NCBI GenBank assembly: GCA_904387305.1
Contig: CAJFLB010000012.1
Location: 1-42,431 of the forward strand
Source: an uncultured Clostridia bacterium
Lineage (GTDB): Bacteria; Bacillota; Clostridia; TANB77; CAG-508
Length of the DNA stretch: 42,431 nucleotides
Direction of reading: 5' to 3'
Below the pieces are notes generated by a model. It was not told the DNA's origin and did no database searches. It saw only the letters and a list, made by a program, of their open reading frames with translations. Below, piece by piece: positions 10,693 to 33,040 of this stretch. The stretch's first letter is position 1. Every line of letters begins with the position of its first letter. The position numbers and the translations under genes were made by a program.

Positions 10693-13600
10693 ATGAAGAA
10701 ATACGTTGTAATTATAGTAATTATAGGCATTTTATTGGTAGGTTTTTTAGTATTTAATACTATAATGATAGAAAAAGAGAGTCAAAAAATATTTCAAGAT
10801 TCAGGATATGTTTTACAAAATGTATCAGCAGCAAATGAGACACAAAATGTAGAAAGATACTATTTTAATGCAGAAGAAACATATAAAGAAAAGTATGAAC
10901 AAAAGGTTATCTTTAAAAATACAGATGATGAAGAAGTAATAGCAAATCTAGATAATTTTATTCATTACTCAGATGGTTCTGTTAGTGCATTTAAAAATGG
11001 TGTATTGTTAAACTTAGATGATATCGATGCTGATCCAATTAGATATTATAATATCGGAGCTAGCAAGGTATTAACAAAACAAGGAGATACATACACCATT
11101 AATAATTTAGATCAAGAATTAGTATTTCATAATGTCATCTGGAAAATATCAGAGCAAAAATATATTGTGCTAGGGGAAAATATAAAGATAGTTTTTGATG
11201 ATGGAACACAAAGGGATATACAAGGATATGTGGAATTTCAATATTTAGACAATGAAATTGTAAAAATATATAATCAAGAAGCTACATATCAAACAATCTC
11301 ATCAAAAGCTTATATTGAGTTGCCAGATGAAATCAAAATAAATTTAAGTACCAGAATTGTAAGTAAACAAAATAGCAACAAAATGAGTTTAGATAATATG
11401 GTAATTGATTCAGATGATAATATTACAATTGCTAATATAGAAAATGAAGAAATAGAAACAGAAGAAATTGCAGAAGCTAATGGACAAGAAGTACAAAATG
11501 GTCAAGAGGCACAAGGTACAGGAACAACACAGGGAAGTTCCCAGACTACAGACACCACAACAAACAATTCACAAACAATTGTGAATGGAGATATAACAGG
11601 TGGAGTAGATAACAATGGACAAACCATTGACCAAGGAAATAGTGGAATACAAGAAAATGTAGAAGTAACAAAGACACCTGTATTTAAGGTGGAAAATTTA
11701 GAGTCTAATTCATTGGGAATCGAGGCAACCATTACTATTGAAGATGAAGATAATACATTAATGAGTGATACCAATATCTATATTTTGGATAATAGTACAG
11801 GTAAAACAGTATATCAATATACAGAGAGTTTAGGTGTTTATAGCATTGATTTATCTATTTCTACATTAGAGCCAGATCATGAGTACACACTTGTAGCAGA
11901 AGCAACATATAGAATAGATGAGATGGAATATACAAAAAACTTTATTTATAAAATATTTAGAACAACACCAATTGGAATTAGTTTAGAAAAAGATGTATTC
12001 ACTTCTACAAGCTTGGGAATTGCAGTTAATATAGATAGAGATACAAAGGTAAAAAGTGCCGAAATTGTACTACAAGATACAAATGGAAATAGATTACAGT
12101 CACAAACGATTACAAACAATACAGTTTCTTCATCAGATATAAAAGAAACTGTAGAATTTACAAATTTAACTCCAAATACACAATACATTGTTAGTATAAC
12201 CAATGTATTGTATGATGGACAAGTGATTACAAATGGTTTTGAATCAAGTACAACATTTACAACACTAAAACAAACACCAACAATACAAGGTACAGCATTT
12301 GAAATCAACAAAAGAGATGCAAATTTTGTATTGAAATTGCAAAATGTTCAAGATCCAAATGGGGGAATACAAAGCTATCAATTCCAAATATTTGATACAA
12401 GAATAACAGATAGTACAGAACCAATAGAAGTGATAGAAACAGAAAATACACAAATCACATTACCAGTAGATGAAGAAAAAATACATAGAAATGTAGGGTA
12501 TACATTTAAAGTAATTGCTATATTTGATGATAATGAAAAAATATGTGAATATGAAAGTGAATATAGTGCAGTTTTTAAAATGGACGGAGTGGAATTCCCT
12601 ACTATTCGATTTGAAGAAAAAGAAATCACTTATGAAAGAATCGAAGGAAATATCATTGTAGAAGATGAAGGCAAAACCATTGATTTAGCAAATGGAAATC
12701 TTTTTGAGATTACGTATACAGATTCAGTAGGTGTAACAAAAAGCTTTACATCACAAGGAAGTTATACAATACCTGTTTCAATAAATAATTTAAGAGCAAA
12801 TGAAACATATAAATTTGCTGTATATACAACTGTAGATTTACAAGATGGTAATGATCCTATAGATGAATGTTACATAGGTGGTATTGTTGTACAAACAGGT
12901 ACACCACAGAATATGGAAGCAACATTTTCAAAAGTTGCAGAAGATGTAAAAAATGTGTTTAATGTAAGTTTTAAGTTAGAACCAGAAAATGAAAATCAAG
13001 GAACATTAGAGCCAGAAACACTAACAGGAATGACAGTTAGTATTTATGCTGGACAAACAGTTGATGGAGAGTTACCAACAGGATCACCTTTGAGAACAGT
13101 AAAATTAGTAGATTCTAATACAGAGCCATATGAAAGTGTATTAAAACAAAATTATTATGACCAAGTAGCGCAAATTACGCCAGCCTTCTTTAATGCAAGA
13201 AATGAAGATTTTAAAGATTCATATTATACAATTGTTGTATCACAGGCATATGATTATACAGATTATAAGAATGCATTACCTATTATCAATAATGTATTTA
13301 CAGTAAGTGCAAATGGATATATGCCAGATTTACCAACAGATACAAACAATGCATTAACTGTAACACCAATTAGAAATTATACAAGTGAAAATAAAAGAGA
13401 AGAATTAGATGATAGTACAATTGTAGGATATAATGTAACAGCAACATATGATAACAGTGGGTTATATGCAAAAGAAGTTACCTATCATGTATATGATGCT
13501 AATACAAATGAATTAATTGAGACAAAAACATTATCAATAGGAGCAGATGGGGTGATACCAACTGCACAATTTGATGTGTTAGATGGAACACCAAATGATG

Positions 13601-33040: not shown

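Follow-up and report, generated by a model that had tools for sequence, protein, structure and literature searches.

What does a rotary ATPase do among genes for giant surface proteins? This question is raised by a locus of an uncultured Clostridia bacterium (GenBank assembly GCA_904387305.1), whose genome comprises 1.89 Mb with a completeness of 99.6%. The window, that is the whole stretch of DNA analysed here, is contig 12 (CAJFLB010000012.1; 42,431 nucleotides). According to its listing of open reading frames (ORFs), positions 10693-33040 contain 11 tightly packed genes, all on the plus strand, in the order GiantN, p480, c, b-delta, alpha, gamma, beta, a protein at the position of epsilon, TM5, p232 and GiantC. 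No intergenic gap exceeds 54 bases, and two gene pairs overlap, gamma/beta by 4 bases and beta/epsilon-position by 20 bases, in agreement with the first-pass annotation of this DNA. The module probably encodes an ATP-driven rotary motor without ion coupling, which would drive the co-encoded giant surface proteins instead of pumping ions or making ATP.

Relatives of the locus were collected in a survey of one genome per species (84,980 species) by means of three peptide patterns. It yielded 30 related loci (L numbers below), all from metagenome-assembled genomes; near copies (L014/L027, L020/L021) are counted apart, and the total is a lower bound because the survey was pattern-based. The names alpha, beta, gamma and c given in the first pass were borne out by Pfam matches above the cut-offs (PF00006 with E 1e-70 for alpha and 1e-67 for beta, PF00231 with 5e-30 for gamma, PF00137 with 1e-7 for c). 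The beta subunit of the window has a Walker A motif, GERSREG, a Walker B motif and DELSEED. Walker A, GER[ST]RE and Walker B are conserved in 27 of 27 beta family rows, exact DELSEED is present in 12 and DEL[ST] in 21 of them. Of 31 alpha rows, 30 contain the arginine-finger motif and 29 the Walker A pattern; the misses are L019, a fragment of 119 amino acids (aa) in which both motifs are lacking, and L009, which misses Walker A. As judged from sequence, the catalytic motifs of F1 are thus intact. The window beta even passes the NCBIfam cut-off for atpD (469.9 against 462.85), and alpha (cut-off atpA), gamma and c score below their ATP-synthase cut-offs. Its identity to Escherichia coli beta is 43%, compared to 63-73% for the canonical beta found in 51 of 60 other sampled genomes of the phylum. 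Some family members possess long charged low-complexity tails, resulting in beta subunits of 640-773 aa or alpha subunits of 642-648 aa (beta of L017, alpha of L034 and L036, furthermore P0061, P0076 and P0094); such tails are missing in the window.

The c protein is the most constant part of the family. In a set of 31 c proteins, from the window and the 30 related loci, acidic residues are absent from helix 2 and from the middle of helix 1 in every member; they are confined to the N-terminal area (-37, -34 and -29, counted from the GRNPE loop) and to positions at or beside the loop (-3, +4 and +8). The equivalent of E. coli D61 would fall at about +21 in helix 2. When E. coli c was aligned automatically with the family, this column contained T in 26 proteins, A in two and L, V and I in one each, and alignment by hand places an A there in the window protein. 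Two other elements are retained in 31 of 31 proteins, the GRNPE loop of cytoplasmic type and a C-terminus reading NP[LF], an end which does not exist in E. coli c. In the normal topology of c the loop binds gamma and the opposite end faces the outside. The conservation of the NP[LF] end would be consistent with a docking site. Subunit a (PF00119) gave no match at E <= 1 anywhere in the source genome, and atpB is absent from the cluster. None of the 30 host genomes exceeded the cut-off for PF00119 (one sub-threshold match, E 0.009) in a search whose control was positive in 9 of 14. Both the missing atpB and the ring that carries no ions had been proposed in the first pass, and both are supported by the sequences. 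Because subunit a and the carboxylate of c are lacking, the module cannot act as a synthase of the familiar type and is unlikely to make ATP; from the sequences, the complex is very probably uncoupled from ions.

In contrast to the head, the stator was identified by its predicted fold, since sequence searches gave no convincing stator match: b-delta has no match in Pfam, its best match among PDB sequences is no better than E 0.02, and hhalign found no match to E. coli b or delta. The AlphaFold2 model, based on 29 sequences (predicted local distance difference test, pLDDT, 82; predicted template modelling score, pTM, 0.48), starts with a helix spanning residues 2-79, followed by additional helices and, at the C-terminus, a beta part. 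All 34 best Foldseek matches are ATP-synthase chains, either delta/OSCP or mycobacterial b-delta (best E 6e-3, probability 0.96); with zero matches at E <= 0.001 the statistics are weak, yet the answer is consistent, the reading of the chains being partly our own. For b-delta, 129 relatives were obtained at E <= 0.001. The fold therefore points to a stator in which b and delta are present as a fusion, as the first pass had named it. TM5 has five hydrophobic segments and a Lys-rich tail. As a candidate for subunit a it was rejected owing to the lack of an invariant Arg and of an hhalign match to E. coli subunit a; possibly it is the anchor of the stator. Neither TM5 nor p232 has a PDB sequence match of note.

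The repertoire of rotary ATPases in the hosts is small. PF00006 detects just three proteins in the source genome, namely alpha, beta and a third one which we take to be Rho. In 28 of 30 hosts the pair of the module is the sole full alpha/beta pair; G106 and G109 contain an additional pair of ~590 and ~450 aa, of V/A type by protein size. Among 18 relatives searched, 15 are without any alpha/beta pair, from which it follows that these relatives manage without a rotary ATPase. The remaining three are G015, which carries the module, G013 with a V/A-like pair (by protein size) and G058. The latter, from the same order, possesses three other alpha/beta-type proteins of 443, 509 and 473 aa, whose sizes suit one export ATPase plus an ordinary alpha/beta pair; rotary ATPases thus vary within the order. 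The possibility raised beforehand that the locus is the only working ATP synthase of the cell holds in so far as no other F/V-type alpha/beta pair was found there, but it is opposed by the missing subunit a and carboxylate. The other objection raised beforehand, homologues that lack the surface genes but have a normal a subunit and a carboxylate in c, was not encountered in any of the homologues examined.

The four proteins around the motor are predicted from sequence to be membrane-anchored and extracellular, with parts resembling Fn3, GLUG and carbohydrate-binding domains. A single hydrophobic segment lies at the N-terminus of the window's GiantN, p480 and p232, and GiantC has one per end (28-60 and 3049-3076). 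Across the family, 19 of 25 GiantN rows have the N-terminal segment, as do 22 of 26 for p480, 20 of 20 for p232 and 11 of 14 for GiantC, truncated rows included and rows below 190 aa left out. The AlphaFold2 model of p480 (pLDDT 78.8) consists of a transmembrane (TM) helix (6-35), a beta-rich domain (40-208), a linker and two tandem Fn3 domains (296-478), and matches Fn3 tandems in Foldseek. As the 50 Foldseek rows listed are proteins of the Fn3/Ig type, no name was assigned to the beta-rich domain. By Pfam, Fn3 is weak in p480 and both giants (fn3 with E 2e-6 on a piece of GiantN); together with the model this agrees with the Fn3 proteins noted at first sight. Positions 46-517 of the GiantN family profile align with p480 at an hhalign probability of 98.3%, and hence the two are regarded as paralogues in that part. 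A piece of GiantC resembles a carbohydrate-binding module (CBM), with a match to PDB 1gui (laminarinase 16A) at E 8.5e-4 and to Pfam CBM_4_9 at E 0.011, below the cut-off; GLUG repeats were recognized in another piece (Pfam Glug, E 2e-11). HExxH and GDSG motifs are missing in all four surface proteins of the window, and a loose LPxTG-like pattern occurs internally in GiantC and p232 only. In L018, L020, L021 and L022, p232 bears a charged cytoplasmic N-terminal extension of 100-200 aa.

The linkage between motor and surface genes can be followed across genomes. In the 30 loci, many of which end at contig borders, c and b-delta are present in 30, p480, TM5 and the epsilon-position protein in 25 each, GiantN in 23, p232 in 19 and GiantC in 12; in L026, which has no p480, the sequence starts within c and is uninformative. 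Twenty loci from Clostridia/Clostridium/Merdicola show the gene order of the window as far as each reaches. Seven of the other ten put beta before gamma (c-bdelta-alpha-beta-epsilon-TM5-gamma), including L035 with p232 in front of gamma; the last three (L028, L034 and L036) again follow the window order as far as each reaches, with GiantC before GiantN in L036. Profiles of p480 and b-delta were searched against the same 385 genomes of the order, a test that is independent of starting from b-delta. The p480 profile was positive in 17 genomes and the b-delta profile in the identical 17 plus one marginal case (G356; 71 residues, E 8e-6). Both genes lie on one contig, adjacent and 270-607 bases apart, in 17 of 17 (Fisher p 1e-28, ignoring kinship). 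Within 94 near relatives gamma and p480 are both found in the same two genomes. The 17 carriers are spread over six genera and two families, which suggests transfer or repeated loss in the history of the module. As the same set recurs in other species, it is more than a chance assembly. Motor and surface proteins very likely work together. The hosts look walled: all 21 genomes tested (the source and 20 of the 30 hosts) have matches to transpeptidases.

Several observations weigh against reading the module as a motor for surface proteins. Four Bacilli loci (L029, L030, L031 and L033) lack p480 and the giants around their motor core despite 1.2-7.9 kb of upstream sequence, and in L014, L015, L027 and L035 no GiantC turned up although the sequence continues past p232 or gamma. 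The giants are therefore dispensable for the motor core, and the linkage of surface genes proposed in the first pass stands for p480 and b-delta but is not universal for the giants. The Bacilli loci carry instead a single-TM protein of 245-259 aa 5' of c and a protein of 281-294 aa 3' of gamma, both without a Pfam match in L030. From these giant-free loci the output part would seem exchangeable, by analogy with the mycoplasmas. Broken copies also occur in the assemblies: GiantC of G015 lies in three ORFs and its p480 has a frame break, L012 and L013 have split genes, and p480 of G604 contains three stops. The 93-aa protein has no match of its own in Pfam and none in NCBIfam or PDB sequences; epsilon, the one subunit name of the first pass that found no backing, is based on place and size and is unconfirmed. 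If it is epsilon, it is one without the C-terminal helices. Finally, the contact between c and the surface proteins is a guess from conservation. Downstream of gamma in L026, L029, L030, L031 and L033, series of small proteins with one TM and a signal segment similar to FAYFTA/YAYYTA were observed, which presumably resemble TasA-type fibre proteins.

The closest known systems are found in mycoplasmas. The first-pass annotation held that their F1-like ATPases do not pair with this set of Fn3/beta-helix surface proteins. This needs correction in that they do pair with surface systems: gliding and antibody cleavage are each served by an F1-like type of its own (PMC12994834), Type 2 working with gliding proteins (PMC11864180) and Type 3 with the antibody-cleaving MIB-MIP pair, with which it co-occurs and for whose function it is required (PMC12994834). 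An F1 motor serving the surface has therefore a precedent. The X0 part of Type 3 is described as a 12-TM protein, a small cytosolic protein and a ~700-aa protein with two TM segments, with no c and no recognised b or delta (PMC3369863; PMC12994834), and for GliD of the gliding motor an origin from a b-delta fusion was proposed (PMC11864180). The module shares with Type 3 the F1-like head, the lack of subunit a, a cluster that serves surface proteins and a patchy distribution. However, it has c and b-delta, neither side has a profile match to the membrane proteins of the other, its hosts carry transpeptidases whereas Type 3 hosts are wall-less, and alpha and beta stay below the MSC_0619/MSC_0618 cut-offs (299 of 520 and 404 of 570 bits). 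The Type 2 G1-ATPase of Mycoplasma mobile is likewise an F1-like motor whose presumed targets are surface proteins, but its beta has a long N-terminal extension, which the 456-aa beta of the module lacks, and the MMOB1660/1670 cut-offs are not reached (377 of 600 and 390 of 850 bits).

A direct comparison was made with 120 Bacilli genomes. With the window beta as query, module beta was found in two of them (64% identity) and canonical beta at 41-49%. Five small genomes yielded six extra, divergent beta proteins (38-45%), and in 27 genomes nothing matched at E <= 1e-40. Five stretches around the divergent beta, from four genomes, were retrieved, four with the seven-gene mycoplasma layout and one with alpha and beta only. 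Only alpha and beta of these stretches match module profiles at E <= 10. Comparison of profiles gave 100% for alpha, 43.6% for gamma and at most 3.2% for other non-alpha pairs; b-delta does not match the fetched Protein-2/GliD-like proteins (0.2%), and no homologue of c, b-delta, TM5, p480, p232 or a giant was found in the fetched stretches. Since a clear match is limited to alpha and beta, the module is set apart from the X0/G1 motors. In the beta tree, 27 module rows form one clade (support 100) joined to six mycoplasma-type rows (97), but the joining branches are long (1.98 and 3.36 changes per column) and separate placements were not rejected by the approximately unbiased (AU) test, neither mycoplasma-type rows forced with the canonical beta of the mycoplasma side (p 0.35) nor module rows forced with the canonical beta of the phylum (p 0.30).

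Other rotary enzymes differ as well. With bacterial F1Fo the module has alpha, beta, gamma, c, b and delta and the order c-b/delta-alpha-gamma-beta-epsilon in common, but subunit a and the c carboxylate are missing, b and delta are fused and surface genes are attached. Mycobacterial b-delta, among the best Foldseek matches, also has the b helix fused ahead of delta, but belongs to a normal proton-coupled synthase; the two fusions are likely independent. Scores are below the NCBIfam cut-offs for alt_F1F0, presumably the N-ATPase (alpha 348 of 750, beta 423 of 752, gamma 31 of 282 bits), for fliI_yscN, the FliI/SctN export ATPase (alpha 163 and beta 212 of 379.5 bits), for V-type B (alpha 134 and beta 172 of 349 bits) and for V-type A (beta 140 of 470 bits). 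The module is neither a normal F1Fo synthase nor a mycoplasma X0/G1 motor. Among open-licence papers, no title or abstract describing it was found.

How could such a motor act? The alpha3beta3 head would be held by b-delta, with TM5 as a possible anchor in the membrane, and gamma and the epsilon-position protein would dock onto the retained GRNPE loop of the c-ring, so that ATP hydrolysis would turn the ring. Its outer end with the constant NP[LF] would meet p480, p232 and the anchors of the giants, whose Fn3 rods, GLUG repeats and CBM-like module would reach through the wall and bind glycans or another surface. As the parts that move ions are absent and giants are co-encoded, ATP is likely spent on turning or pulling surface proteins; on balance, mechanical work on these proteins is favoured, and ATP-driven pulling, turning or release of bound ligands in adhesion, capture or slow gliding would be the likeliest use. 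It is a much more tentative idea that the c-ring itself transmits torque to the outside. Equally speculative is its extension, in which the ring is a pure torque axle whose NP[LF] ends grip anchored extracellular proteins and, on the outside of a walled cell, rotate giant arms that bind glycans.

Among the alternatives, a system analogous or distantly related to the mycoplasma Type 3 X0 ATPase deserves most attention, although we regard it as rather unlikely. Here ATP would open or reset surface binders and release a captured host molecule such as antibody or mucin, and neither the cell would move nor a ring turn outside. The dependence of MIB-MIP on Type 3 and their co-occurrence (PMC12994834), the joint branch of the beta tree and the suitability of CBM-like and Fn3 parts for ligand capture speak for this explanation. 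It is difficult to reconcile with the lack of homologues of the other module proteins in the mycoplasma stretches and of HExxH or GDSG in the surface proteins, and given the long branches an independent origin was not rejected. An unconventional ion pump or ATP synthase, in which TM5 takes the place of subunit a and ion passage does not depend on the usual carboxylate, might be considered for cells whose only F/V-type alpha/beta pair is that of the module, as in the source genome and, for full pairs, in 28 of 30 hosts, all the more with c and stator retained and a beta above the atpD cut-off. The acid-free membrane part of all c proteins and the properties of TM5 make this quite improbable; moreover, 15 of 18 relatives live without any alpha/beta pair, and the tight linkage to surface proteins would be left unexplained.

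A role of the ATPase in exporting or assembling the surface proteins, comparable to that of flagellar or type III export ATPases, would account for the co-encoded large exported proteins and for the relationship of the beta family to FliI. Yet p480, p232 and the giants carry ordinary N-terminal anchors and the scores are far below the FliI/SctN cut-offs; to our knowledge, export ATPases have neither a c-ring nor b-delta, and this role is improbable. It is very improbable that the module is what decay has left of a normal ATP synthase and lies among surface genes by chance. The missing subunit a and the broken copies would fit decay, but not the constancy of c, the beta catalytic motifs kept in all 27 rows, or the recurrence of the set in Clostridia and, rearranged, in Bacilli, with p480 and b-delta together in 17 of 17 genomes.

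The coordinates are summarized in Table 1. The GiantN ORF from the mechanical start at 10609 comprises 1796 aa; the start at 10693 given in the first pass is preferred because an AGGAGG box is located immediately 5' of that ATG. Promoter and terminator scans at both ends of the module gave nothing beyond the level of shuffled sequences, and the term operon is consequently a reading from gene spacing. Genes of the methylerythritol phosphate (MEP) pathway lie on both sides, a YgbB/ispF-type gene and an ispE-like GHMP kinase before (9125-10524) and IspD after the module (36877-37554), which may have been inserted between them. Next after the module are a protein with AAA-ATPase_like and PD-(D/E)XK nuclease parts (33304-34983) and a Schlafen/AlbA_2 protein with a winged-helix end (35044-36474), preceded by a short in-frame tandem repeat (NDTL). 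At 416-1726 a single protein of 436 aa combines an N-terminal GNAT acetyltransferase with a C-terminal aldo/keto reductase.

Table 1 Genes and protein parts of the module (positions in the window)
Feature	Position	Strand	Properties or basis
GiantN, 1768 aa	10693..15999	+	one N-terminal TM (residues 1-28), predicted extracellular; Fn3-like region
p480, 480 aa	16016..17458	+	TM helix, beta-rich domain, linker, two Fn3 domains
c subunit, 81 aa, two TM	17469..17714	+	PF00137
Fused b-delta stator (by predicted fold), 283 aa	17725..18576	+	AlphaFold2 model, Foldseek
alpha, 444 aa	18589..19923	+	PF00006
gamma, 260 aa	19939..20721	+	PF00231
beta, 456 aa	20718..22088	+	PF00006, catalytic motifs
Epsilon-position protein, 93 aa	22069..22350	+	place and size only
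TM5, 197 aa, five hydrophobic segments	22368..22961	+	sequence features
p232, N-terminal TM and extracytoplasmic domain	22982..23680	+	sequence features
GiantC, 3101 aa	23735..33040	+	TM at both ends; Fn3-like, CBM-like and GLUG regions
CBM-like piece of GiantC	26312..26794	+	PDB 1gui match
GLUG-repeat part of GiantC	28400..31198	+	Pfam Glug, three stretches

How an ion-driven rotary enzyme becomes a mechanical motor is an open question. The cases known to us are restricted to wall-less mycoplasmas, and their membrane part is not recognisably Fo. The module retains c and b-delta, now devoid of ion binding, in Clostridia and Bacilli that possess cell-wall transpeptidases, and the question can therefore be tested on more readable parts. 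The combination of a c protein without carboxylate and a missing subunit a provides a marker for candidate motors among genes annotated as ATP synthase, such as the window beta, which passes the atpD cut-off. If the proposed function is true, the module represents a new kind of cell-surface machine. Should the ring in addition act as a torque axle, this would be the first complete F1 head, shaft, ring and stator doing mechanical work outside the cell, and a living intermediate between ATP synthase and the gliding and antibody-release motors of mycoplasmas.

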